A model generated the notes under the pieces. That model was not told where the DNA came from, searched no databases, and worked only from the letters and a program-made list of their open reading frames with translations. A stretch of 38,538 nucleotides of DNA from Deltaproteobacteria bacterium (GTDB lineage: Bacteria; Desulfobacterota; Desulfobacteria; Desulfobacterales; Desulfosalsimonadaceae), in the NCBI GenBank assembly GCA_013151835.1, contig JAADHK010000134.1, positions 1 through 38,538 on the forward strand, written 5' to 3'. The translations under genes and the position numbers were made by a program. Every line of letters begins with the position of its first letter. Position 1 is the first letter of the stretch. This document shows positions 4,321 through 17,276 of this stretch, in pieces.

Positions 4321-4346
4321 CATAGTTTGTGAAGGAGGATGCAGCC

Positions 4347-4625
4347 ATGCAAAAACAATTTTCAATTGCCGAAGCAAAAAACAGGCTTCCTGCAATAATC
4401 CATGATGTTGAAAAAGGCCCTTATGTGGAATTGACAAGACGTGGAAAACCGGTTGCCATCTTGCTGTCTATTCAGGAATATGAACGGATCAGTCGTAAAA
4501 ATACCGGGTTTTGGAGCGCTGTTTTAAATTTTCGGCAAAAATTCATGGATGAATCTGTTGGCATTTCCGATGATGATTTCAAAGGGCTTCGTGATATTTC
4601 TTCCGGAAGGGACGTTGTGTTATAA
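4347..4625 (+). CDS. Phd/YefM-type antitoxin
   Basis: This 92-residue protein begins at ATG 4347, 8-9 bp after AGGAGG; an upstream GTG at 4329 lacks this spacing. The N-terminal half has the Phd/YefM DNA-binding and dimerisation pattern: FSIAEAKNRLPAIIHDVE, then YVELTRRGKPVAIL and S-x-Q-E-Y-E-R-I. The C-terminal 45 residues should be the toxin-neutralising tail. Its stop overlaps the toxin start (TAATG), so the two are translationally coupled. It should bind the toxin and repress the operon at the palindrome upstream. The family is clear; the exact subclass (VapB-like versus Phd) is less so. Confidence 0.88.
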   Translation: MQKQFSIAEAKNRLPAIIHDVEKGPYVELTRRGKPVAILLSIQEYERISRKNTGFWSAVLNFRQKFMDESVGISDDDFKGLRDISSGRDVVL

Positions 4626-5044
4626 TGATGAAATATCTCATTGATACAAATGTGCTCTCTGAGCCGGTCAAGACCGTACCGGATCAATCGGCCCTGAAGA
4701 TGATTGAAAAACATCAGCACGAACTTGTTACGGCTGCTCCTGTCTGGCATGAGCTTCAATTCGGTTGCCGGCGTCTTCCGCAGTCCCGCAAGCGCGAGGT
4801 TATTTCTTTATTCCTAGACAACGTCGTCAAACGCACAATGCCCATTCTTCCCTATGATGAAAGGGCGGCGGAGTGGCATGCAAGGCAGCGGGCCCGACTG
4901 TCGGCAAAAGGGATGCCCCCGCCATTTGTCGATGGACAGATTGCGGCAATAGCTGCGGTAAATAGTCTGATTCTCGTGACGCGGAATATGGACGATTTTA
5001 AATGCTTTTCAAAATTAAAGATTGAAATCTGGCATGGTATGTGA
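4625..5044 (+). CDS. vapC: VapC-type PIN-domain ribonuclease toxin
   Basis: This 139-residue PIN-domain protein has the acidic metal-binding residues expected of VapC: D7 in YLIDTNVLSE, E43 in VWHELQFG, D103 in FVDGQIAAIA, and D123/D124 in TRNMDDF. PIN toxins cleave RNA, often initiator tRNA or rRNA loops; the target here cannot be told from sequence. The start overlaps the antitoxin stop by one base, and a second ATG follows at 4628. The length is normal and all catalytic positions are present, so the toxin should be active. Confidence 0.92.
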   Translation: MMKYLIDTNVLSEPVKTVPDQSALKMIEKHQHELVTAAPVWHELQFGCRRLPQSRKREVISLFLDNVVKRTMPILPYDERAAEWHARQRARLSAKGMPPPFVDGQIAAIAAVNSLILVTRNMDDFKCFSKLKIEIWHGM

Positions 5045-6105: not shown

Positions 6106-7127
6106 AGCAGCTTACCATTAAAGGTGCGACCGGGAATTCGGAAATTTTTATCAATGAACGTCTTGAAAACCTTTCCGCGTACCTGCCCGACACCCGGGTG
6201 ATCATCATCACGGACACCAATGTGTCAAACCTTTATGCAGACCGTTTTCCGGATACTGAAATTATAACCATCGGCACGGGAGAAGTCATAAAGACCATGG
6301 ACACGGCGGCAAATATTTACCGCCGCCTGATTGAACTTCAAGCCGACCGGTCTTCATTTCTCGTTGGAATCGGCGGCGGAATCGTGTGCGACATCACCGG
6401 GTTTGCGGCTTCAACCTATATGCGCGGTATTGGGTTCGGGTATGTGGCAACAACGCTCCTGGCCCAGGTGGATGCGAGCGTGGGCGGAAAAACCGGCGTG
6501 AATTTCATGGGTTATAAAAACATGGTCGGCGTTTTTAATCAGCCGGATTTTGTTCTCTGTGATCCGAATGTGCTGCAAACGCTTTCGACCCGGGATCTGG
6601 CCTGCGGGTTTGGCGAGATAATCAAGCACGCCGCCATTACCGACGCGGATTATTTTTCATACTTAGAAGCGCATAGCGCGGATGCCGGAGCCTTGAATGC
6701 CCCGGTCATGGAAAAGATTATTTTTGACTCGGTCCGGATAAAGGCGGATGTCGTCAACCGGGATGAAAAAGAGGCGGGAGAGCGGAGAAAACTTAATTTT
6801 GGACATACGCTCGGCCATGCCGTGGAAAAGACAACAAAACTTCCCCACGGGGAAGCCGTGGCCGTCGGTATGATTGCCGCAGCCAGGTTGTCCGCCGAAC
6901 AGGGCCTCATATCAAAGGCCGACGTTGAACGGCTCCGCCGCCTTGTTTTATCATACGGCCTTCCGGTATCGGCCGGCATTGATAAAAAAGCAATCATGGA
7001 TGCCATGGCCCGCGACAAGAAGCGGAAGGGAGCAGGCATACATTTTGTGCTCCTTGCCGCCATCGGGCAAGCCGTCATAGAGGAAATTTCCATGGATGAG
7101 CTTGAAGCGGTTGTTGATTTGCTTTAG
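6102..7127 (+). CDS. aroB: 3-dehydroquinate synthase
   Basis: This enzyme converts DAHP, the product of the preceding gene, into 3-dehydroquinate using NAD and a divalent metal. I chose ATG 6102, which overlaps the aroF stop, over an upstream in-frame start at 6036 inside aroF. The 341-residue protein has the NAD-binding GIGGGIVCDITGF, the ATTLLAQVDASVGGKTGVN segment, GFGEIIKHA, and the metal-ligand motifs NFGHTLGHAVE and LPHGEAVAVGM. The length is slightly under the usual 350-360, with all core motifs present. It ends 10 bp before the convergent patatin gene. Confidence 0.95.
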   Translation: MKQLTIKGATGNSEIFINERLENLSAYLPDTRVIIITDTNVSNLYADRFPDTEIITIGTGEVIKTMDTAANIYRRLIELQADRSSFLVGIGGGIVCDITGFAASTYMRGIGFGYVATTLLAQVDASVGGKTGVNFMGYKNMVGVFNQPDFVLCDPNVLQTLSTRDLACGFGEIIKHAAITDADYFSYLEAHSADAGALNAPVMEKIIFDSVRIKADVVNRDEKEAGERRKLNFGHTLGHAVEKTTKLPHGEAVAVGMIAAARLSAEQGLISKADVERLRRLVLSYGLPVSAGIDKKAIMDAMARDKKRKGAGIHFVLLAAIGQAVIEEISMDELEAVVDLL

Positions 7128-7137
7128 GGTGGGTATC

Positions 7138-8040
7138 TCACCGTATAAACCGTCCAATCTGCATACGCGCGCACTGGTAACCTTCCTCAAGGAGTCTTTC
7201 CGCATGCCGGGGCGTAAAGTTTAACAGGGACTTGAATCCGAGCATCCGGGTGGGTGCAACAGTTGCCAGGCGTTTTCCCTTAAGGGCTAACTGGAGCTGT
7301 GGAGAATCGGGAAGCGGCGTGTCATAAGATGCCGCATCTTTTCCGACTTGCCAGCTATTGTTGTGAAGCGCCACGGTATATGATCCAATGAGAAATTGTT
7401 CAAAGACCAGTTCCGCCACCTCCCTGTGGGTTTTCGGCATTTTTGCGGCAAAGGCCCCAAGGGGAGAGAGCAGAACCACGATAATTTCCTTTGCCCCTAG
7501 CCCCAGGGCCGGTGCGATGGGTGTATTTGCCATTATACCGGCGTCCCAGTAAGGTGAGCCGTCAATATACTGCCAGGGAAAGAGCATTGGAATGGCGCCT
7601 GCCGCCATGAGATGCTCAATCTCTATGACCCGGTGCGTAAAATACCGGATCTGTGATGTCCGCATATTCAAGGCGGCAACCAATATCTCAGTGGAGCTGT
7701 TCCGAAGCGACCCTATATCGAAGCTTTCCTTGATAAGTCGTTTTAATGGCCGGGTGTCAGACAGGGGTGAAAATTTACGGCCGGAAAGCAGGGTCCGAAG
7801 GAATGCCGGTGTGGTAAAGTGGTACATCTGTTTCCGGTGATACTTCTTCCAGAGTCCGATCATGTCCTCAATCGACATGCCGGATCCGATTGCCGCCGCG
7901 TTTATGGCGCCCACGGAGGTCCCGCAGATAAGGTCGGGCCGCCATCCTTTTTCCTCCAGATATTTTATAACGCCGACCTCAAATGCGCCCCGTGCGCCCC
8001 CTCCCGAAAGAATCAGCGCGCGTTCAATCTTTTTCCCCAT
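7138..8040 (-). CDS. Patatin-like phospholipase (RssA/NTE type)
   Basis: This 300-residue protein has the patatin Ser-Asp dyad: the oxyanion loop GGGARGAFE (13-21), the nucleophile S42 in GTSVG, and D166 in WDAGIMAN. The family hydrolyses acyl esters of phospholipids or neutral lipids. There is no signal peptide, so it is probably cytoplasmic or membrane-associated. It is transcribed away from the phasin-like gene, and the 257-bp spacer between them holds several GCAWTGC palindromes, one of them 40 bp upstream of this start. That suggests joint control with granule genes. A function in mobilising granule lipid or polymer is plausible but inferred. Confidence 0.88.
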   Translation of the reverse strand: MGKKIERALILSGGGARGAFEVGVIKYLEEKGWRPDLICGTSVGAINAAAIGSGMSIEDMIGLWKKYHRKQMYHFTTPAFLRTLLSGRKFSPLSDTRPLKRLIKESFDIGSLRNSSTEILVAALNMRTSQIRYFTHRVIEIEHLMAAGAIPMLFPWQYIDGSPYWDAGIMANTPIAPALGLGAKEIIVVLLSPLGAFAAKMPKTHREVAELVFEQFLIGSYTVALHNNSWQVGKDAASYDTPLPDSPQLQLALKGKRLATVAPTRMLGFKSLLNFTPRHAERLLEEGYQCARMQIGRFIR

Positions 8041-8079
8041 GGGAAGACCCCTCTTTTTTATGGATTATCAATACAACAA

Positions 8080-8227
8080 TGACGCATTGCATTATTTTTG
8101 GTATTAATTTTATTTATAAAAAACAAAATGTTGAAAACGATACTGAGAAAAAAAGAATAAAAAGTGAAAGTTTTACTTGACAGATAACGCATTGCGTCAT
8201 ATATTCTCTCCTAACGCAATGCATCAT
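8080..8227 (+). promoter_or_regulatory. Cluster of ACGCAWTGC palindromic sites, candidate PhaR-type operators
   Basis: Three close relatives of one sequence lie in the spacer between the divergent patatin and phasin-like genes: TGACGCATTGCATTAT (8080-8095), TAACGCATTGCGTCAT (8185-8200) and TAACGCAATGCATCAT (8212-8227). All are centred on the 7-bp palindrome GCAWTGC. PhaR repressors are known to bind TGC-rich palindromes at phasin promoters. Genes for two PhaR-domain proteins lie nearby, so these are their likely binding sites. The assignment is inferred. Confidence 0.65.
8177..8205 (+). promoter_or_regulatory. Strong sigma70-type promoter of the phasin-like gene
   Basis: TTGACA (8177-8182), a 17-bp spacer and TATATT (8200-8205) make an almost consensus promoter. 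One candidate operator fills the spacer (8185-8200) and a second covers the predicted start of transcription near 8212. A repressor bound there would block RNA polymerase. The leader to the ATG is about 85 nt. Confidence 0.85.
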
Positions 8228-8297
8228 ATTGCATTTTATTTTTATCCCATAGCATAATTTTATGTATTATTAAATCCTAACTACGGAGGGCAGAACC

Positions 8298-8843
8298 ATG
8301 GCAAAAGCAACCAAGAAGACCGAAACCACCCAGGCGACAATCACCGAAAAAATTCGGAAGGCCGCAGATACCTTAACCGAAAAGGTCAAGGAGTACAACG
8401 AAAAATATGTTGCCGCCAACATCGAGAAGGGCAAGGAAACGCTTAAGGAGTATAACGAAAAATACCTTGAAAAAACGATCGAAAAAGGTAAGGATACGTT
8501 CAGGGAATACAATGACAAGTATGTTTCAAAGTACGTTGAAAAAGGTAAATCCTATGTTGAAGGTCCTTACAAGAAGGTGTCCGGACAGGTCGACGAACTC
8601 CTTGAAAAAGGACGGGAGATCGAAAAGGACGCAGTGAAAAAAATCGAAGACGTGCTTGAAAAAGGGAAAAAGCTGGCTGCAAAGCTTCCCATGGCCGATA
8701 CCATTGAAAAGAAGGTTACCGCCGGCCTGAACGCCGTACCGTCTCTGGTCAATCTTCCCGTAAAAGAAGATATCCAAAAACTGACCAAGGCAATGAATAC
8801 CTTAAATTCGAATATCGAAACATTAAAGAAGAAGGCTGCTTAA
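8298..8843 (+). CDS. Phasin-like granule-coat protein with 19-residue repeats
   Basis: This 181-residue lysine- and glutamate-rich protein is almost entirely amphipathic helix. Between about residues 28 and 120 it carries degenerate 19-residue repeats built on EYNEKYLEKTIEKGKDT, five in number with the last two weaker. The C-terminal segment (LPVKEDIQKLTKAMNTL) matches the short coiled coil (P-x-x-x-D-x-x-x-L-x-x) that ends many phasins and PhaF-like proteins. There is no signal peptide or cysteine. A strong ribosome site (GGAGGG, 8284-8289) and a near-consensus promoter predict high expression, as expected of a granule coat. Phasins cover PHA granules; coating a wax-ester or TAG inclusion is equally possible here. 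The role rests on composition and context rather than a clear family match. Confidence 0.7.
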   Translation: MAKATKKTETTQATITEKIRKAADTLTEKVKEYNEKYVAANIEKGKETLKEYNEKYLEKTIEKGKDTFREYNDKYVSKYVEKGKSYVEGPYKKVSGQVDELLEKGREIEKDAVKKIEDVLEKGKKLAAKLPMADTIEKKVTAGLNAVPSLVNLPVKEDIQKLTKAMNTLNSNIETLKKKAA

Positions 8844-9175
8844 TTTCCTGATGGCGTCGTAAAAAGCTATGTATTCTGCGCCACAGTATTTTTGCGGGAA
8901 GTAATTTTTATAGGGTAGCCCGGGTTTCTTTTCCGGCGATTCACATGACAATTTTATTTGTCGGAAAAGAATTCCGACCTACCGGCGTTGCAATGTTTTT
9001 CATTTTTTCCATCCCGGCGGACCGGCCATGGGGGTCGGTCCGCCGGGCTCCAGTGACGGACCGTTTTTTTTGTCCCGGCATCTCCAATCGATTTCTCCTT
9101 ATTTACCCGTGTCCGTCTATCAATCGTCTGGTTCCACTGATTCCACTGGTTCCGGATTAGCCACAGGAGGGAGTT
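8844..9175 (+). other. Non-coding spacer with alternative hairpins before the PhaR-like gene
   Basis: No convincing gene lies in these 332 bp. CCCGGCGGACCG (9013-9024) pairs perfectly with CGGTCCGCCGGG (9036-9047). The segment CGGTCCG at 9036-9042 can instead pair with CGGACCG at 9057-9063, which is followed by eight T residues (9064-9071), giving a terminator-like hairpin. A further small hairpin (TCGGAA/TTCCGA) lies at 8961-8977. The region may end most phasin transcripts or attenuate read-through into the regulator. Confidence 0.6.
8851..8866 (+). repeat. Half copy of a dispersed palindromic repeat
   Basis: The 16 bases here are identical to the reverse complement of 19706-19721, the right end of the repeat in front of argC. 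The match begins 8 bp after the phasin-like stop codon. No opposite arm is present, so it looks like a remnant. Confidence 0.7.
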
Positions 9176-9760
9176 ATGTATCTTATCAAGAGGTATGCAA
9201 ACGGCCGTTTTTATGACACTGTTGAAAAGAATTTCGTAAACCGGAAAGATATCAAGGAGCTTATGCGCAAAGGCAAAAAGATATCCATCACCGACACCAG
9301 GACGGGCAAGGATATCACCGCTGATGTTAAGTCCAAGATCGAGGCCACGGCAGCACGTGCCTCAAAGAAACCCGGCGGGAAAAAGAAGAAAAAAGCTGAT
9401 GACAGTGCCGGTATTTTTGTCCAGCTTTTCCGAAAAGGGAGCGATACTCTTTTTGATTACGGCAAGAAATACTCCTCAATGTGGCAGAACCTCGTTACCA
9501 TGTCTAAGGACGAAGTCGACAAGGTAATAAACATGCTTAAAAAGGAAAACAGGCTCTCGGACATTGAAGCCGGGAAGCTGAAGGATGAAATCAACCGCTA
9601 CCGGAGCAATATCCAGGGATGGATTAACCGCAATATCGATTCCCGCATAAATGAGATATTAAGCAAAATGAATCTTGCAAATCGGGACCAGGTACTTGAA
9701 TTAACGGGTAAAATTAAAGACCTGACCAAGAAGATCAAGAAGATGGAGAAAAAGAAGTAG
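9176..9760 (+). CDS. PhaR-type DNA-binding protein fused to a phasin-like C-terminus
   Basis: Residues 1-50 fit the PHB/PHA accumulation regulator N-terminal domain: IKRYANGRFYDT, then a helix and ISITDTRTGKDITADV. A basic linker (KKPGGKKKKK, about 63-75) joins it to a helical half with YGKKYSSMWQNLVTMSKDE and a terminal coiled coil beginning NRDQVLELTGKIKDL, like phasin and PhaF tails. In known systems PhaR binds both granules and phasin promoters and is released from DNA as granules form. This 194-residue protein seems to hold both abilities in one chain. Its start follows AGGAGGGAG at the right distance. A paralogue is encoded at 13978. The likely targets are the palindromes at 8080-8227. 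Confidence 0.82.
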   Translation: MYLIKRYANGRFYDTVEKNFVNRKDIKELMRKGKKISITDTRTGKDITADVKSKIEATAARASKKPGGKKKKKADDSAGIFVQLFRKGSDTLFDYGKKYSSMWQNLVTMSKDEVDKVINMLKKENRLSDIEAGKLKDEINRYRSNIQGWINRNIDSRINEILSKMNLANRDQVLELTGKIKDLTKKIKKMEKKK

Positions 9761-9798
9761 AGAAAATCCATTCTCAGGCTCAAGGAATTTTGCCGGTA

Positions 9799-10773
9799 AT
9801 GATTCAACCCCGAAAGCCCTATGATATAAATGAATTGTTAAGCTGCCACGGCGATTTGGAAGCAGTTTCCAATCTGCTTTCAAGTCGCCTGATTTTTGTC
9901 ATGGGCAAGGGCGGCACCGGCAAGACTACGTTATCTGTCTGCCTTGCTTTTATTGCTGAAAAAATGGGCCTCACGACTTTGATTGTCGAGATCGGCGACA
10001 GTGCCGGGACAGCCCAGTTTTTTGGAGAGTCGGACGCCGGGAACGAACCTTCCCGGGTTTCTTCCAGAATATGGACCACCGGTGTTGACCCAAGGGCCGA
10101 ACTGGTTGCCTACACTCACCACCACATGAAGTCAGGCTTTATTGCCGGCCGCATCACAAAAAGCCGGCTTTTTGATTATCTCCTTGCGGCGACCCCGGGT
10201 TTAAAGGAGATAATGACCCTTGGCAGGATATGGCGGTGGTTTACGGGAGGACCGGATAAAGATGGGCCCGCATTTGACCGGATAATCGTTGATGCACCTG
10301 CAACAGGACATGGACTGAGTCTCCTGAGCCTGCCGAAAAACCTCGGTGATATGATACGGGTCGGCCCCATAGCCGCCCAGGTGGAGGACATCCGAAAACT
10401 CGTTACCGATTCTTCGCGCACGGCCGTTACCGTTGCCACACTTCCGGAGGAATTACCCGTTAATGAAACCCTTGAAATGATGGCGGCCGCCAAAAGAGAT
10501 GTCGGCGTTGATGTTTCCCCGATTTTTATCAATTCAGTCTATCCCGATATTTTTACCTCTGAAGAATCCGAGGACATAAAACGGTTCTTTCCCGACAGGG
10601 GACAGACGCGGCTTATCAAATCATGGGTCAATCGGTGTCAGTCCCAGCAGGCTTATATCGATCAGATTCTGGCAAACGTAACATGCCCGGTGATCCGGCT
10701 TCCCTTTTTTTTTACGAACGAATTGTCGACACAAGAGGTCAGGAAACTCTCCTGGAGTCTGAAAAAGGCCTGA
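9799..10773 (+). CDS. ArsA/GET3-family ATPase, first of a tandem pair
   Basis: This protein of about 324 residues has the deviant Walker A GKGGTGKTT including the signature lysine, a short VEIGDSAGTAQFFG in place of the usual D-P-A segment, and VDAPATGHGLSLLSLP as the switch/A-loop region. It lacks a membrane segment. ArsA/GET3 ATPases are dimers that couple ATP hydrolysis to moving a metalloid or a hydrophobic tail-anchored protein. There is no ars gene nearby, so arsenite export is unlikely. The gene lies 38 bp after the PhaR-like gene and 3 bp before a paralogue. ATG 9799 is preferred, but TTG 9790 is possible because AAGGA (9782-9786) lies awkwardly between them. Confidence 0.85.
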   Translation: MIQPRKPYDINELLSCHGDLEAVSNLLSSRLIFVMGKGGTGKTTLSVCLAFIAEKMGLTTLIVEIGDSAGTAQFFGESDAGNEPSRVSSRIWTTGVDPRAELVAYTHHHMKSGFIAGRITKSRLFDYLLAATPGLKEIMTLGRIWRWFTGGPDKDGPAFDRIIVDAPATGHGLSLLSLPKNLGDMIRVGPIAAQVEDIRKLVTDSSRTAVTVATLPEELPVNETLEMMAAAKRDVGVDVSPIFINSVYPDIFTSEESEDIKRFFPDRGQTRLIKSWVNRCQSQQAYIDQILANVTCPVIRLPFFFTNELSTQEVRKLSWSLKKA

Positions 10774-10776
10774 TTC

Positions 10777-11928
10777 ATGGAATACAGGGATATTCGAGAC
10801 ACGATCCGTACCGACGAAGCCGACCCCATGGTTATCGTCTGCTGCGGCAGCGGGGGAGTGGGAAAAACTACAATTTCAGCGGCTCTGGGACTATCCTGTG
10901 CCATGTCCGGTCACAAGACCCTGGTTCTTACCGTGGACCCCGCCAGGCGGCTTGCCGACGCCCTTGGAGTTTCTCCGTTAAGCCATGAACCCCAGCGTGT
11001 AAACACAGGTAAGACCCCGGAACTGTCCGGGGAGCTTTATGCCATGATGCTTGATCCGCAATATACTTTCGATATGCTGATCAAACGATATGCGCCGAAC
11101 GGACTTAAAGACCATATCTTAAACAATCGTTACTACATGCATATTTCCCGAAATATGGCCGGTTCCCATGAATACATGGCCATGGAAAAGCTTTATGAGG
11201 TTTTTACCGGGGGGGGGTATGACCGGATAGTACTCGATACACCGCCCAGTCGTCGGGCGCTTGATTTTCTGGAGGCTCCCCAGAGGGTTTTAGACCTTCT
11301 CGGGCACCGGTATTTTCTCAAGCTGTTCCAGCCCTATATCAAGGCGGGACAATGGAGCAGCCGAATTTTTAATTTTCTGGCGACACCTGTCTTAAAAGCC
11401 GTCGGCCAGGTCGTGGGGCATAACGCATTAACCGATCTCCTGGCTTTTTTTCAGCTCTGGAATGATCTGCTTTTTGACGGTTTCAGGCGCCGTGCGTCCG
11501 CTGTAAAATCACTCCTGTCAAGCCCTTCAACCATTTTTTTTGCCGTTACCACTCCACAGGCGTTTCCGAGAACCGAAGCGGTCGGTCTTGCACATAAACT
11601 CGTTGAACGCAAGTTTTCGTTTGCGGGGTTTATCGTCAACAGGGTCCATGAATTTAAAAATCATGATTCCCTTGAAAAAGACCCGCCCCAGTTTCAGCCC
11701 GGGGAACTCGGAGAAAAAATTTCAATCGCATACCGACTGGAACAACGGCTCGCGCGAAGCGATGCCCATGCATTAAAGGCTCTGGAAACGGAAGCTGGAC
11801 CTGCTGGTGTTATCCATACTATCCCGTTTTCAGATGAGTCCATACATGATCTTTCCGGGTTAATTGAGGTGTGCCGGCATCTGATGCGGTTGCCGGTTAA
11901 CGGTTCTCGGTTCAAAACAGAGGAGTAA
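10777..11928 (+). CDS. ArsA/GET3-family ATPase, second of a tandem pair
   Basis: This 383-residue partner starts 3 bp after the first ATPase stop. Its Walker A reads CCGSGGVGKTT: the first lysine of the GKGGxGKT motif is a serine, while the P-loop lysine remains. TVDPARRLADALG follows, as in ArsA proteins, and LDTPPSRRALDFLEAP forms the switch region. From memory, paired ArsA-like ATPases of actinobacteria (the Rv3679-Rv3680 type) show the same asymmetry, one GKGG and one GSGG subunit, and act as a complex. A heterodimer with the preceding protein is therefore likely. Its position among granule genes suggests a lipid- or granule-related role, which remains inference. Confidence 0.87.
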   Translation: MEYRDIRDTIRTDEADPMVIVCCGSGGVGKTTISAALGLSCAMSGHKTLVLTVDPARRLADALGVSPLSHEPQRVNTGKTPELSGELYAMMLDPQYTFDMLIKRYAPNGLKDHILNNRYYMHISRNMAGSHEYMAMEKLYEVFTGGGYDRIVLDTPPSRRALDFLEAPQRVLDLLGHRYFLKLFQPYIKAGQWSSRIFNFLATPVLKAVGQVVGHNALTDLLAFFQLWNDLLFDGFRRRASAVKSLLSSPSTIFFAVTTPQAFPRTEAVGLAHKLVERKFSFAGFIVNRVHEFKNHDSLEKDPPQFQPGELGEKISIAYRLEQRLARSDAHALKALETEAGPAGVIHTIPFSDESIHDLSGLIEVCRHLMRLPVNGSRFKTEE

Positions 11929-11966
11929 GTGCTCTTACCCGTCAAGTGTAAACCGCAAACGGATAT

Positions 11967-12008
11967 AAAAAAAGGAGGCGGCCTCGGTGATGGCTGTCTC
12001 CTTTTTTT
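11967..12008 (+). terminator. Bidirectional Rho-independent terminator
   Basis: AAAAAAAGGAG (11967-11977) pairs perfectly with CTCCTTTTTTT (11998-12008) around a 20-nt loop. It lies between the convergent ArsA-type and acyltransferase genes and has A/T runs on both sides, so it can serve both. Confidence 0.88.
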
Positions 12009-12026
12009 CGGTTTTTATAATGCAGA

Positions 12027-13688
12027 TTATCCGGCGGAACTCTCTTTATTTTCGTTTTCCGTCAGTTTTTCATACTTGGTGAGGTGAATGGTGCAGTACA
12101 TGGAGTTTGTGGCGGCACGGTTCAGGCATTGCTTGCCGCTTTTGGTCGTTGCCTTGCAGCGGATGGCCTGGACATTTGTGGCCGGCATGACCTGTGGCGG
12201 GACAGGAATGTCGGCCTCCATGGATCTGTCATTTATGACAAGCGGATCTTTTTCCATTTTGCCCGCCTTATACATGCCAAGAAGCATTCTGAATTCATTT
12301 ACAAAATTTTCCAAAATGGTTTTCGGGTCTTTTACCAGCCCAGTATCGGTTGCAATGCCGACCGAGACCCGGTTGTTATAACTGATAATGCTGATACCTA
12401 TGCCCAGGCCGCCGATCCGGGGCACCCAGAACATGATTTTCTTGATTTCCTCGCCTGCGAAATACAGGGCATGGCGCGGGCCGGGAACATTGCTCAAAAC
12501 CCCGGTGGTTTTGTTGGCAAACATTGTGGCGCCTGTCTTTGCAAGCTTTGCCGATGAAACGCCGAGGGCGTTTAAGACCACCCATGCAACAGCCGCATCC
12601 GGCGCCTCCTTGAGGTCCCTGATCCTGCGCTGAACTTCGCGTATCCTTAATACGGGATCATCTATATGAACGGGGAGCGCCACAAGAATCAGGCTGAACT
12701 GGTTCCCGAGTTCTATTTTGCTGTCCATGGGCCGGATGTTGATCGGCATTGCCATGCGAAGGTCAAGGTCGCCAACCAGGTTATTGCATTGCTGAAGATA
12801 CCTGCGCAATGCGCCGGTAACAAGGGCCACAAGGATATCGTTAATTGTGGCGTTAAAGTATTTACCAACAGCCTTGATATCCTGGAGGGGGAGATCTTCC
12901 GACCATGCAAGGCTTTTCCGAACCCCGAGTCCACCCTTAAAGGCTGTTTTACGGTCTGCAGGAAGCAGCATGATCTTGCTGAGCACCGTTGCGGTGTCCA
13001 GGATGAATTTACTCACGGTCTTGCTTCGTTCCAGGAAATGCAAGGGATTGGAGATGCTTGCATCAATCTCTTTTGTCATAAAACGGGCCGCTTTGCTGGC
13101 GCGTCGCTTGGCCCTGGAAATTTTTTTAAATGCCGATTCAAGAGGCGGGAACATGTCAAATACAGGCTCTTTTTCACGTTTTTTCTCTTTCATGACGGCG
13201 CTCCACTGGGCATCTGGCGTTTCATCGGCCATGGAAAGGAGAAGTTTGACAAGAGCTATGCCGTCGGCGATGCAATGGTGAATCCTCGAGAAAAGGACTG
13301 AACCGCCGTTTTTATAATTTTCGATATAATGAAACTGCCACGGGGGCTTGGTTGAATCAAGGGGGGACACGCTCAGATCACTGAGCACCTCCTCGAGTTC
13401 AGCCTTGCCACCCGGGGACGGAAGGGCAATGCGCTGGAGATGGGAGCGCAGATCGAAATGAGGGTCAAGTTCCCACACGGCATTTCCAACACCGGTCATG
13501 GGACGAACGATCCGTTTTTTGAATCTGTCATAGCAGAGGAGTCGGTTCTTTATGGTTTCCGTAAGGCGTTCAAAGTCAAGGGGCTTGTCGAATTGCATGA
13601 AGCCGGTGATGATCATTAAGTTGGTTGGATTGTCCATGTGAAGCCAGAAATTATCAATATTATCCATTATCTCAACATTTTTTTTCAT
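12027..13688 (-). CDS. Wax ester synthase/diacylglycerol acyltransferase (WS/DGAT) with a Cys-rich tail
   Basis: The enzyme joins acyl-CoA to a fatty alcohol or diacylglycerol, making wax esters or triacylglycerol. The catalytic HHCIADG lies at residues 137-143. NDILVALVTGALRRYL, the segment around MAMPINIRP and LSNVPGP are further family motifs. I start at the ATG whose first base is 13688, just after an AAGGAG ribosome site; an in-frame start at 13769 has no such support. The protein has 553 residues, longer than the usual 450-480, because of a C-terminal extension with C511-x9-C521-x10-C532-x2-H535, probably a small zinc-binding knuckle. It faces away from the PhaR-like paralogue at 13978. 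The acyltransferase assignment is firm; the role of the tail is unknown. Confidence 0.93.
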   Translation of the reverse strand: MKKNVEIMDNIDNFWLHMDNPTNLMIITGFMQFDKPLDFERLTETIKNRLLCYDRFKKRIVRPMTGVGNAVWELDPHFDLRSHLQRIALPSPGGKAELEEVLSDLSVSPLDSTKPPWQFHYIENYKNGGSVLFSRIHHCIADGIALVKLLLSMADETPDAQWSAVMKEKKREKEPVFDMFPPLESAFKKISRAKRRASKAARFMTKEIDASISNPLHFLERSKTVSKFILDTATVLSKIMLLPADRKTAFKGGLGVRKSLAWSEDLPLQDIKAVGKYFNATINDILVALVTGALRRYLQQCNNLVGDLDLRMAMPINIRPMDSKIELGNQFSLILVALPVHIDDPVLRIREVQRRIRDLKEAPDAAVAWVVLNALGVSSAKLAKTGATMFANKTTGVLSNVPGPRHALYFAGEEIKKIMFWVPRIGGLGIGISIISYNNRVSVGIATDTGLVKDPKTILENFVNEFRMLLGMYKAGKMEKDPLVINDRSMEADIPVPPQVMPATNVQAIRCKATTKSGKQCLNRAATNSMYCTIHLTKYEKLTENENKESSAG

Positions 13689-13977
13689 AACCGCGTCTCC
13701 TTGAAAAATAAAAATTATCCCGATAATCTTTGCCGCCGAGAAGTTTTTATAACATAAAAACCTGCTCAATTACGATTCGAACCGGGGCCACGGGGCCAGG
13801 AGTGTATTGATCCAGTGTATTAATATGGGGAGAAATGCATAAAATTTTTATTAACAGGATTTTATTTGAAATGCAATCCTAATTTTTGCTACACATACAT
13901 CCGTTAACGTTTGACCATGCATCCGCCCGGATGATCTTGCGGGCAATCAGGCTTTCGTCATTCCACAAGGAGGAAAA

Positions 13978-14547
13978 ATGCATTTAATCAAAAAGTATAC
14001 CAACAGAAAGCTCTATGATACCAATGATAAACAGTATATTACCATGGAGAAAATCGCTGAACTGATTAAATCAGGCGTGGAAGTAATGATAATCGATAAT
14101 GAAAGCGGGGATGATCTGACGGCAAAGCTTGTCTCCCAGCTTCTGGGTCGTGAAAAAAAGGAGACCGGCAAGGCGCTGCCGTCTTCAGTATTGATGCAGA
14201 TGCTGAGAAAGGGCAGGGGAACATTGTTTGGCTACGGCCGTAAGTATGTTTCACTGTGGCAGAACGCGTTTACAATGTCTAAAGATGAGATCGAAAGGTT
14301 AATAAACACCCTGGTGCGGGATAAAGAGATATCCGAATCCGAAGGGAAAAATCTTAAAAATGAGATTGTATCCTATACCAGCGGTGTAAAGAACTGGATA
14401 CTTGAAAATATAGATCAGAGTGTCACGGATGCTCTGGCCATGATGAACCTTGCCTCAAGGGACCAGGTCAACAAGTTGACAAAGAGGGTCGACTCCCTTT
14501 CAAGAAAGGTTATCTCACTGGAAAAAGAAATCAGGGGCAGGAAGTAA
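13978..14547 (+). CDS. Second PhaR-type/phasin-like hybrid protein
   Basis: This 189-residue paralogue of the protein at 9176 has the PhaR N-terminal domain in cleaner form (IKKYTNRKLYDTNDKQYIT, then IIDNESGDDLTAKLVSQLL). The second half aligns with its paralogue over YGRKYVSLWQNAFTMSKDE and ASRDQVNKLTKRVDSL, but it lacks the lysine-rich linker. A strong AGGAGG lies 7 bp before the ATG. The 289-bp spacer towards the WS/DGAT gene holds no clear GCAWTGC site, only an 8-bp hairpin at 13745-13763 (GTTTTTAT/ATAAAAAC). It may share operators with its paralogue or act mainly as a granule protein. Confidence 0.85.
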   Translation: MHLIKKYTNRKLYDTNDKQYITMEKIAELIKSGVEVMIIDNESGDDLTAKLVSQLLGREKKETGKALPSSVLMQMLRKGRGTLFGYGRKYVSLWQNAFTMSKDEIERLINTLVRDKEISESEGKNLKNEIVSYTSGVKNWILENIDQSVTDALAMMNLASRDQVNKLTKRVDSLSRKVISLEKEIRGRK

Positions 14548-14548
14548 G

Positions 14549-14806
14549 CTAAATCCAGCGGCCGTTTCTCTTAATGAGATTAATGGCCCCTGCAACCGGC
14601 GCGGATGTTGCAGGCGACGGAAGGAAGAAGGTGACCGCAGACCAGGCACTGATAAAAGTGATTACCGTGCCGGTGCACATTATCAGCAGTCCGCCCGCAC
14701 ACCCGGTTATGGCGCCGATTCCGATCATTACGATCAGCCCGCCGATTATAAAGGCGATGATGCTTCCGACAAAAAGCATTAACTGAAACATGGTTTGTGC
14801 TTCCAT
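14549..14806 (-). CDS. Small two-helix membrane protein, function unknown
   Basis: I do not recognise this 85-residue ORF. Two hydrophobic helices (about residues 7-31 and 33-62) are rich in Gly, Ile and Met, with a short polar tail ending INLIKRNGRWI. An internal ATG at 14791, five codons in, has a weak GGAAG ahead of it and may be the true start. It ends one base after the convergent PhaR-like gene. The strong hydrophobic pattern favours a real gene over an antisense 70-residue frame at 14574-14786. Confidence 0.55.
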   Translation of the reverse strand: MEAQTMFQLMLFVGSIIAFIIGGLIVMIGIGAITGCAGGLLIMCTGTVITFISAWSAVTFFLPSPATSAPVAGAINLIKRNGRWI

Positions 14807-14949
14807 TGTCTGTGAAATTGTATTAAGGGTTACGCCGTCATGGTAAATATGGCACTTTTTTAAAATTTACGCTATCAATTGATGTATATCATTTCTTTTT
14901 TGAATTTTCAACATTAAAAATCCATGTCAATAAAGAGGATCAGGTATAA

Positions 14950-16347
14950 ATGTCAGTGAAAAAAAGGCTGCCGCCCGGAACGTTTTTTCTCATCATAATA
15001 GTGTCGTTTTTTTATATGCCTCCGGGTACAAGCCCTACCCATGCCGCCGTTAATCTCCGGGAAAACGACGTTGTCAGGGCTGTTCGGCAAATCAGCCCTG
15101 CAGTCGTCAATATCAGCACACAATACGAGGTCCGAAGGCGTGTCAATCCCTTTTCAGCTCATGGACGGGATGATTTTTTCAAGAATTTTTTCGATCCCGG
15201 CGTTGAAAAACGGCAGAAACTAACCAGCCTCGGTTCAGGCGTCATCATAGACGGAAAACGGGGTTTTATTCTTACCAACGCCCATGTCATTGCCCGGGGG
15301 GGCAAAATAACCGTTGTCCTGAAAGACGGGCGACGGCTTGAGGCCGAAATTGTCGGTGCGGATTCCGAATCGGATCTTGCCGTTCTGAGAATAGCACCCG
15401 ATGAATTGCTCCCGGATGTAAAAATGGGGAATTCCGACGACCTTATGATAGGGGAGACGGTGATTGCCATAGGCAACCCCTATGGGTTTTCCAATACAGT
15501 CACGACCGGGGTTGTGAGCGCCGTGAATCGCAGTGTACGTATCGACAAGCATATTTTTCGTAATTTTATCCAGACGGATGCGTCCATCAATCCAGGCAAC
15601 AGCGGGGGGCCGCTGTTGAATATCCTGGGCGAACTCATCGGCATCAATTCCGCCATTTACAAAAACGCCGAAGGGATCGGGTTTGCCATTCCGATCAACA
15701 GGGCGAAAAAGATCGTTGCCGACCTGATAGACTACGGCGAAGTCGTTCCCGGGTGGATAGGTCTTATTGTTGGCAACATTTCCCCAAACCTTGCCGACTA
15801 TCTAAATATAAAAAAAGGAAACGGCGTTGTCGTAAAATCCGTTGCCCCATCCAGCCCGGCCGGGAAAATCAATATCACGCCGGGAGATGTTATACTTGAA
15901 CTGGATAAAACCCTTATTCATTCGGTCTATGATTACCGGTCTGTTTTAAGGGGAGCCTCAAAAGGCCGGACAATGCCCATAAAGATTTTAAGGGGAAAGA
16001 AGAATCTTTCAGGAAAGGTTGTTGCCGGTATTTTTCCGGAGGATCTGGCGCCGTCTCTTGGCCATCGTCTTCTCGGCATAAAGGTGGTCGGCATTGACAA
16101 AAAAAATAATTTTAACAATATTTATGCCTCATCAGGGGTTATTATCTCTCAAATCGATTCCGGATCGCCCCTTGCCGGCATAGGTGTCAGGCCCGGGGAT
16201 GTGATCAGAAAGATTGATAACCAGATATGCAATGATACGGATGCATTTTACAGGGCTGTTGTTAAAAAACGCTGGAAAGAGTCGGTTGTTATTCTTCTGC
16301 AGAGGGGAGAACATGGTTATTATATTACCGTAAAGCTGGCTGAATGA
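14950..16347 (+). CDS. Periplasmic HtrA/DegP-like serine protease with two PDZ domains
   Basis: This 465-residue protein starts with a signal peptide (hydrophobic residues 11-23, cleavage near PTHAA). The trypsin-like domain has the triad H112 (LTNAHVI), D142 (SDLAVL) and S218 (NPGNSGGPL). Two PDZ domains follow at about 255-350 and 360-465; the typical SPAGKINITPGDVI and SPLAGIGVRPGDVI segments are visible. Such proteases remove misfolded proteins from the envelope. The stop overlaps the start of the next gene by four bases (ATGA), so it is translationally coupled to the second patatin, an uncommon pairing. Confidence 0.93.
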   Translation: MSVKKRLPPGTFFLIIIVSFFYMPPGTSPTHAAVNLRENDVVRAVRQISPAVVNISTQYEVRRRVNPFSAHGRDDFFKNFFDPGVEKRQKLTSLGSGVIIDGKRGFILTNAHVIARGGKITVVLKDGRRLEAEIVGADSESDLAVLRIAPDELLPDVKMGNSDDLMIGETVIAIGNPYGFSNTVTTGVVSAVNRSVRIDKHIFRNFIQTDASINPGNSGGPLLNILGELIGINSAIYKNAEGIGFAIPINRAKKIVADLIDYGEVVPGWIGLIVGNISPNLADYLNIKKGNGVVVKSVAPSSPAGKINITPGDVILELDKTLIHSVYDYRSVLRGASKGRTMPIKILRGKKNLSGKVVAGIFPEDLAPSLGHRLLGIKVVGIDKKNNFNNIYASSGVIISQIDSGSPLAGIGVRPGDVIRKIDNQICNDTDAFYRAVVKKRWKESVVILLQRGEHGYYITVKLAE

Positions 16348-17276
16348 ATTTCATTGAAGGAACATCTTATATTTCCAGGAGTGTCCGGTCCAGATTGAGG
16401 GGCTTTCCGAATAAAAAGGTCCTGGTTCTCGAGGGCGGAGGGATGCGCGGTATTTTTACCGTGGGCGTACTCCAGGCATTCACGGAACATGGCTTCAATC
16501 CGTGGAAGCTTATAATCGGCGCCTCGGCCGGTGCATTAAACGGCATCGTATATGCGGCAAACCAGATACACATCGCCAGGGACGCTTTTTTTTCTGAGCT
16601 GACTTGTGGCCATTTTATCCGGATAAGCAATATTTTCAGGCCGGAAAAACATATTTTAAATCTCGACTGGATGACGGATTACATCATTTCGGGGGATGAG
16701 CCGTTAAACATCAAGCGATTAAGAACCATGGCCTGTCCGGTTCTGCTTGCGGCGACCCGTTTTTTTCGGGACGCGCCACCCGACATTCTGTTTTTGAACA
16801 GCAAGACCGACAACTTATCCGATGCCATGAAGGCAACCGCTGCAATGCCTTTTTTTTACCGGGGGTTTGTTCCATACGGAAAAGATCTGCTTATAGACGG
16901 TGGAGTGCTGGATGCCATACCTTTCGAAAAAGCCCTTGAAATGGGCTTTGAGGAAAAAGATATTCTCGTTGTGCTCACACGGCCGAAAGGTTACCGTAAA
17001 TACACGGACTCTTTTTGGGTGAATATGCTCTATGAGACATATTACCGGGATGAACAATACAGCTTTCTCCTGTCCGCTCTCCAGGGACATTATGACGCTT
17101 ACAACCGTAAGCTCGATAAACTTGAGCGGCATCACAGCATAGATGTGATTTATCCGCCCCGGCATTTTAAAATAAACCGGCTCAGCAAAAACGAACAAAA
17201 GATCGTTGAAGGATTTGAGCAGGGGGTTTCCGCTGCTAAATCATATCTTCATAAAAAGCACATCAGGCATGAATAA
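16344..17276 (+). CDS. Patatin-like phospholipase (YjjU type)
   Basis: This 310-residue patatin has the oxyanion loop EGGGMRGIF (30-38), nucleophile S61 in GASAG, and D185 in LIDGGVLDAIP. The layout and the C-terminal part (LVVLTRPKGYRK; RHFKINRLSKNE) fit the YjjU-like group more than the RssA-like protein at 7138. No signal peptide is seen. It overlaps the HtrA-like gene by four bases, so the two are made together. The physiological substrate is unknown; membrane phospholipid or granule lipid are the candidates. Confidence 0.88.
   Translation: MNFIEGTSYISRSVRSRLRGFPNKKVLVLEGGGMRGIFTVGVLQAFTEHGFNPWKLIIGASAGALNGIVYAANQIHIARDAFFSELTCGHFIRISNIFRPEKHILNLDWMTDYIISGDEPLNIKRLRTMACPVLLAATRFFRDAPPDILFLNSKTDNLSDAMKATAAMPFFYRGFVPYGKDLLIDGGVLDAIPFEKALEMGFEEKDILVVLTRPKGYRKYTDSFWVNMLYETYYRDEQYSFLLSALQGHYDAYNRKLDKLERHHSIDVIYPPRHFKINRLSKNEQKIVEGFEQGVSAAKSYLHKKHIRHE

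Follow-up and report, generated by a model that had tools for sequence, protein, structure and literature searches.

A conserved gene block of the Desulfosalsimonadaceae suggests that a granule-sensing PhaR switch has been re-used for oil droplets

Genes and operators of the block

The DNA considered here is a stretch of 38,538 nucleotides (the window; positions 1 to 38,538 of contig JAADHK010000134.1, assembly GCA_013151835.1) from a member of the Desulfosalsimonadaceae, and our subject is the block at 7138-14547, which brings PhaR- and phasin-like proteins together with a WS/DGAT acyltransferase (wax ester synthase/diacylglycerol acyltransferase). Seven open reading frames (ORFs) make up the block: Pat1 on the minus strand, Phs, PR1 and two ATPases of the BagA and BagB type on the plus strand, the WS/DGAT on the minus strand, and PR2 on the plus strand (Table 1). 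Pat1 is divergent from the Phs operon and the WS/DGAT is convergent with BagB. An earlier annotation made from the letters alone (the sequence-only reading) had placed all seven ORFs at these positions, and Pfam and NCBIfam profiles bore out its patatin, its PhaR domains (PHB_acc_N in both PR1 and PR2), its ArsA-type ATPases and its WS/DGAT, all of which scored above cut-off in the window. The WS/DGAT carries the HHxxxDG active-site motif as HHCIADG and is predicted to make wax ester or triacylglycerol (TAG). The source genome (G000) comprises 3.33 Mb in 147 contigs and is 97.6% complete; its named near relatives are metagenome-assembled genomes of Desulfobacteraceae, Desulfobacterales and Desulfococcus.

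Table 1. Positions and supporting evidence of features in and around the block
Feature	Position	Strand	Evidence
Pat1, patatin-like phospholipase/lipase	7138..8040	-	PF01734 102.4 bits; GTSVG and DAG motifs in translation
Operator copy TGACGCATTGCATTA, 40 bp from Pat1 start	8080..8094	.	One mismatch to TRACGCANTGCGTYA
Sigma-70-like promoter of Phs operon, TTGACA-17-TATATT	8177..8205	+	11/12 matches
Main operator TAACGCATTGCGTCA, occupies promoter spacer	8185..8199	.	Exact match; conserved in relatives
Second operator TAACGCAATGCATCA, just downstream of -10 box	8212..8226	.	One mismatch
Phs, phasin-like amphipathic-helix protein with 19-residue tandem repeats	8298..8843	+	Sub-threshold Phasin match; hydrophobic moment; repeats
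PR1, hybrid of degenerate PhaR DNA-binding domain (NGRFYDT) and phasin-like C-terminus	9176..9760	+	PHB_acc_N 52.8 bits
BagA-like ATPase, GKGGTGKT P-loop, switch I without DPA	9790..10773	+	NF053622 124.4 bits, cut-off 400
BagB-like ATPase, GSGGVGKT P-loop, DPA present	10777..11928	+	NF053621 267.6 bits, cut-off 521
Terminator-like stem, 17 pairs, in BagB/WS-DGAT gap	11967..12008	+	Sequence scan; weak
WS/DGAT acyltransferase, HHCIADG motif, C-terminal Cys/His motif	12027..13769	-	TIGR02946 374.1 bits, cut-off 309.95
PR2, hybrid of intact PhaR DNA-binding domain and phasin-like C-terminus	13978..14547	+	PHB_acc_N 77.2 bits

The operator/promoter region at 8080-8226 is new here and goes beyond the sequence-only reading. 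Promoter-like sites numbered 13 in 7100-15000, close to the shuffle mean of 9.5, and the promoter of this region was the best among them. When the window was searched for TRACGCANTGCGTYA with up to two mismatches, four sites were found (8080, the exact match at 8185, 8212, and an unrelated one at 1498), against a shuffle mean of 0.27 and with none of 100 shuffles reaching four. In the whole 3.3-Mb genome there were three sites with at most one mismatch, all of them in the Pat1/Phs gap, and a reversed-pattern control gave 0. In a de novo count of dyads, 11 of 13 Pat1/Phs gaps contained ACGCA-N-TGCGT, versus at most 2 in 60 shuffles, and relatives had tandem operator copies 22-28 bp apart. Among the matches listed for the family, at least 34 sites were exact, 32 of these in loci of the block type; the reversed control returned 1-2 matches in several family genomes, and one-mismatch sites occurred in some genomes without the block (G003, G004 and G012). 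The core YGCRNYGCR was present upstream of Phs in 19/19 loci, compared with 0/21 for PR1, 2/22 for BagA and 2/15 for PR2.

The GCA-N-TGC arrangement was recognised as a PhaR layout because of published PhaR motifs. The motif reads YTKNTGCRNYGCANMAR in Ralstonia (PMC12849132), TGCRNYGCASMA in Bradyrhizobium (PMC6201568) and WNWD2NYGCRNYGCRNH2WNW in Sinorhizobium meliloti, whose phaP1 and phaP2 genes both have a pair of PhaR sites flanking the -35 element (PMC12542648). The operators of the block fit the S. meliloti core. A first test for spaced TGC..GCA dyads gave no enrichment in the gaps of the block, where the operator has the inverse order GCA-N-TGC. The TGC..GCA version was found within 400 bp of 11 of the 12 PhaR genes on phaC contigs, with a GCANTGC-type core and different flanks. 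Since the PhaR genes near phaC carry that version, a PhaR paralogue, with PR2 as the best candidate, probably has its own operator.

PR1 and PR2 are full-length paralogues (hhalign 100%, E 8.9e-54, 38% identity). Both exceeded the PHB_acc_N cut-off of 25 bits and stayed below the PhaR equivalog cut-off of TIGR01848 (109.45 bits; 41.4 for PR1 and 73.2 for PR2). The DNA-binding signature NRKLYD was invariant in the 12 aligned relatives of PR2, while the corresponding NGRFYDT of PR1 was present in 17/17 aligned relatives, with N9, G10, R11 and F12 invariant. PR2 is thus the likelier DNA binder, and judging from this signature it is probably the best candidate for the operator-binding repressor. 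Its AlphaFold model had a mean predicted local distance difference test score (pLDDT) of 70 and a predicted template modelling score of 0.34 and, like the model of Phs, was too weak to base a fold search on.

Alternatively, the operator could be bound by an unlinked regulator, for instance of the TetR type, in which case PR1 and PR2 would be droplet coat proteins only. Palindromes of 15 bp are typical of TetR proteins, PR1 has a degenerate signature, and one genome (G028) has an exact copy of the operator in the gap that separates a TetR-like gene from a divergent ORF. However, NRKLYD is retained in every aligned PR2, the source genome has no operator site near any other gene, and the same genomes carry the related core with other flanks at their PhaR genes near phaC. 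Together with the fit to the PhaR consensus of PMC12542648, these observations lead us to regard an unlinked regulator as improbable.

The phasin assignment of the sequence-only reading needs a correction. No protein of the window reached the PF05597 cut-off of 28.8 bits (Phs 15.0, PR1 19.2, PR2 27.1), but among relatives this profile matched at E<=0.01 in 8/17 Phs, 16/17 PR1 and 12/12 PR2 proteins (the best Phs relative at E 5.3e-05), and the C-termini of Phs and PR2 aligned with each other (hhalign probability 78%, E 1.7e-5). Phs itself is a helical protein rich in lysine, and at both 98.2 and 100 degrees per residue its hydrophobic moment exceeded that of 500/500 shuffles. A 57-bp tandem repeat at 8388-8512 encodes its 19-residue repeats, whose copy number varies among relatives; its AlphaFold model is mostly a single long helix of low confidence (pLDDT 56).

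The C-terminus of the WS/DGAT (12027-12170) contains a Cys/His motif, RCKA..SG..C.NRAA...YC..H, which was sub-threshold for DUF5763/HGGxSTG. It was seen in the WS/DGATs of the block in 16 genomes and was absent from those beside BagAB in three genomes of genus g2.

Conservation of the block and its association with WS/DGAT

The sequence-only reading had proposed a search for conserved adjacency in other Desulfobacterota and had named its absence as grounds for refutation. This search, run on 36 genomes of the family, found that the adjacency is kept, and the idea thus withstood the test. At the 23 family loci examined, where only the seven block families were considered and other ORFs between them ignored, PR1 was directly upstream of BagA in 23/23, and BagB adjoined WS/DGAT at all 21 loci that hold BagB, both exceeding what chance would give. 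Phs adjoined PR1 in 19/23 and WS/DGAT adjoined PR2 in 15/23, whereas Pat1 was next to Phs in 13/23 and next to PR1 in 3 more; several of the missing adjacencies are contig ends. One other ORF separates BagB from WS/DGAT in G027. The three g2 genomes have two loci, the first with Pat1, PR1, BagA, BagB and a divergent WS/DGAT, and the second, where the operators are located, with WS/DGAT, an alpha/beta-hydrolase-like ORF, Phs, PR1 and a third WS/DGAT; PR2 was recognised beside the second locus in G005. In G025 (L037:1242-7195), ~5 kb containing unrelated ORFs and N runs separates BagA from BagB, reflecting an insertion or a scaffolding error.

Across the family, BagB (at >=266 bits) was found in 21 genomes, WS/DGAT in 22, PHB_acc_N in 25 and PhaC in 12. 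Every BagB genome also had WS/DGAT, none had BagB alone, and a single genome had WS/DGAT alone (Fisher p 4e-9); in that genome, G019, the contig ends inside BagA. BagA is likewise cut by a contig end in G007, a 77% complete genome that gave no WS/DGAT match. In genus g4, none of the nine genomes had PHB_acc_N, WS/DGAT or a BagB match exceeding 50 bits. The trend was similar in an evenly drawn sample of 218 genomes of the phylum, in which BagB (E<=1e-40) was present in 14 and WS/DGAT in 7, all 7 of them among the 14 (p 8e-10), and PHB_acc_N was present in 10 of the 14 BagB genomes versus 24 of the 204 others.

PHA synthase (PHA, polyhydroxyalkanoate) was not detected within the block by profile search, as the sequence-only reading had said. 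The source genome nevertheless encodes a class III PhaC outside this contig, at C69:67660-68712, with a third PhaR 4.8 kb from it. In the family, PhaC was searched for with TIGR01836 at E<=1e-10, a setting that detected the class I control from Caulobacter (the family was not searched with PF07167, the model for classes I and II), and on this basis was absent from 11 of the 22 WS/DGAT genomes (G006, G019, G020, G021, G023, G025, G027, G028, G030, G033 and G034), of which G023 and G028 are 99 and 100% complete. Because no PhaC match was found there, the PhaR/phasin parts are unlikely to serve PHA in these 11 genomes.

This result bears on the possibility that PR1, PR2, Phs and BagAB serve the PHA made by a class III synthase encoded on another contig and that the WS/DGAT is a chance neighbour. 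The PhaC of the source genome agrees with such a role, as do two genomes of another family (f8), in which a PhaR-type gene lies directly before BagAB and a class I PhaC elsewhere, with no WS/DGAT match. Against it stand the 11 genomes just listed, the closer tracking of BagB with WS/DGAT (p 4e-9) than with PhaC (p 0.005), and the different operator flank at PhaR genes near phaC. We consider a role in PHA storage unlikely and rejected a PHA-only reading as the main one. The sequence-only reading had left a choice between PhaR/phasin parts re-used for lipid droplets and a strain that makes both materials. Conservation of the block, its association with WS/DGAT and its PhaR-type operators favour re-use; the source strain may nevertheless make both, since C69 carries a PhaC and a third PhaR.

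A candidate neutral-lipid droplet module

The conserved block, its association with WS/DGAT rather than PhaC, and the PhaR-type operators together support the view that PhaR/phasin machinery was put to new use on a neutral-lipid droplet. We therefore favour, as a likely though by no means certain account, the view that the block is a neutral-lipid droplet module assembled from PHA-granule parts, which suggests that a granule-sensing switch has been re-used for oil droplets. Gene order, co-occurrence and the operator are seen in the sequences themselves; the following course of events is inferred. The WS/DGAT would make wax ester or TAG, and before droplets appear a PhaR paralogue, most likely PR2, would occupy the operators in the Phs promoter. 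Once droplets have formed, PR2 would be drawn to their surface through its phasin-like C-terminus, and its removal would free the Phs-PR1-BagA-BagB operon and perhaps the divergent patatin gene. Phs and PR1 may then coat the droplet, from which the patatin could release fatty acids, while BagA and BagB might, at a guess, form a heterodimer of the Get3 type that either handles the amphipathic proteins of droplets or governs how droplets are assembled. According to PMC12849132, PhaR is sequestered on nascent granules and phaP1 is thereby freed; by analogy, this sequestration logic may have been carried over from granules to droplets.

Several observations weigh against this account. Exact operators also occur between TolB-like and Pal-like ORFs, upstream of the latter, in G018 (L253:2089) and at the TetR-like ORF of G028 mentioned above (L254:5291). 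The PR2 promoter of the window lacks an operator, and among main-locus PR2 genes an operator with up to two mismatches was found at 10/15, 7 of these with two mismatches. In addition, the operator departs from the Ralstonia/Bradyrhizobium consensus (TGC..GCA) at the two outer positions. With respect to co-occurrence, half of the BagB genomes in the phylum sample (7 of 14) lack WS/DGAT, and outside the family WS/DGAT was beside BagB in 0 of 19 stretches of up to 20 kb each. The metagenome-assembled genomes (MAGs) of the family are kin, so the Fisher values overstate independence. Finally, Rv36-numbered proteins go unnamed in the main text of PMC10699116, which surveys the proteins of mycobacterial lipid inclusions.

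The BagA/BagB-like pair and comparison with known systems

The sequence-only reading had described the two ATPases as an ArsA/GET3-like pair and had proposed that they deliver proteins to the granule. They are indeed ArsA-type ATPases in tandem (ArsA_ATPase 92.8 and 90.2 bits, cut-off 24.3), but their nearest relatives are mycobacterial BagA and BagB and not GET3, whose TIGR00345 cut-off of 135 bits neither reached (84.1 and 82.0 bits). The closest solved structures were chain A of 6bs3 (Rv3679; E 4e-24) for the BagA-like and chain B (E 1.1e-58) for the BagB-like protein, although the NCBIfam equivalog cut-offs were not reached. Mycobacterial Get3 homologues are reportedly the subject of a 2019 paper in J. 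Bacteriol. Reading of both sequences revealed no CxxC motif, and a tail scan of the block proteins found no hydrophobic tail anchor. Delivery of a tail-anchored client is therefore not suggested by the sequence, and we rejected delivery of the GET3 type for such proteins, both ATPases also being below the GET3 cut-off. The proposed delivery role has weak support, in the linkage of the pair to PhaR-type genes by gene order and to WS/DGAT by co-occurrence.

The pair divides its catalytic residues. In the family, all 21 BagB proteins have serine in place of the P-loop signature lysine and retain DPA, while all 22 BagA proteins have the lysine and lack DPA (one truncated BagA was left out); alignments to chains A and B of 6bs3 showed the same split. 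It extended to the phylum sample, where the lysine was absent from 18/19 BagB proteins (S 11, A 2, E 2, T 2, P 1) and DPA present in 17/19, and where 15/16 BagA proteins combined the lysine with the absence of DPA, the remaining one having no P-loop. In a scan of named genomes BagB had serine in 69/71 cases, a count biased by the scan pattern CGSGGV. In Get3 the signature lysine reaches across the dimer, whereas the DPA aspartate acts within its own subunit. By this analogy, a BagAB heterodimer would have a single competent composite ATP site.

A different explanation gives BagAB a general house-keeping role of the kind reported for mycobacteria (redox, glycerol or nitric oxide stress) and makes its co-transcription with droplet genes incidental. 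Mycobacterial bagAB has been implicated in defence against the toxicity of glycerol and nitric oxide (PMC10597346), BagAB was widespread in Actinomycetota in the scan of named genomes, and most BagAB pairs of the phylum sample have no adjoining storage gene. On the other hand, a PhaR-type gene directly precedes BagA at every family locus and in the two f8 genomes, BagB is present in 7/7 WS/DGAT genomes of the phylum sample, and WS/DGAT is present in 37 of 49 BagB genomes outside the family (49 of 71 loci, hand-picked and with no BagB-negative comparison). We regard a general role as a serious contender that falls only a little short of an even prospect.

Under the droplet module that we favour, BagAB would hypothetically load phasin onto droplets. 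In its most complete form the proposal describes a dedicated storage-organelle system. Neutral-lipid droplets, in place of PHA, would be sensed by a PhaR paralogue that has an operator code of its own, and amphipathic phasins would be brought to the droplet surface by a BagAB heterodimer in which one composite ATP site is competent. This form is doubtful as a whole and is offered tentatively. If BagAB were such a Get3-like phasin loader, its counterpart in Actinomycetota would likewise count as a lipid-droplet factor. The block ties droplet coating and regulation outside Actinomycetota, about which little is known, and the question of BagAB clients to one small operon, and it suggests how, through gene duplication and the exchange of two bases in the operator flank, a sensor might be switched from one storage material to another. 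A literature search, with most subscription papers outside its reach, found no account of such an ArsA/phasin/PhaR wax-ester system.

Other features of the window are listed here for completeness. The stem at 11967..12008 is weak evidence for a terminator because the number of such sites in the region (11) equals that expected by chance (10.5). At 14950-17276 lie an HtrA-type protease and, after it, another patatin (79.6 bits), which carries a DUF6363 domain; this pair is also found 3' of PR2 in G020 and G023. By reading only, the two overlapping ORFs at 4329-5044 resemble a Phd/YefM antitoxin and a PIN/VapC toxin, and the repeated DVDGDGSVFNTSDGLM segments at 34-702 resemble dockerin-type calcium-binding repeats.

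Among known systems, GET3/TRC40 shares with the ATPases of the block the ArsA_ATPase fold family and the P-loop, but the pair of the block is heteromeric, scores below TIGR00345, and has neither CxxC nor a tail-anchored client in the block. BagA/BagB (Rv3679/Rv3680; PDB 6BS3-6BS5) is closer: the genes are adjacent, each partner has the matching chain as its best solved relative, and BagB lacks the signature lysine and BagA the DPA in both cases. The ATPases of the block differ in scoring far below the equivalog cut-offs and in their PhaR/phasin and WS/DGAT neighbours. In actinobacteria, lipid-inclusion proteins (TadA/HBHA, MLDS) coat TAG inclusions with a lysine-rich repeated amphipathic helix, and WS/DGAT is encoded in the genome. 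Such a helix is common to these proteins and Phs, compared by description only; Phs differs in being phasin-like and under a PhaR-type operator. Finally, the block resembles the PhaR/phasin system of PHA granules in Ralstonia, Sinorhizobium and Bradyrhizobium in its PHB_acc_N domain, its phasin target gene and its tandem palindromic operators with the core YGCRNYGCR around the promoter boxes. It departs from that system in that the adjoining enzyme is WS/DGAT and not PhaC, the regulator is fused to a phasin-like C-terminus in place of the usual PhaR C-terminus, the operator flanks read CGC..GCG instead of TGC..GCA, and there are two divergent paralogues, PR1 and PR2.

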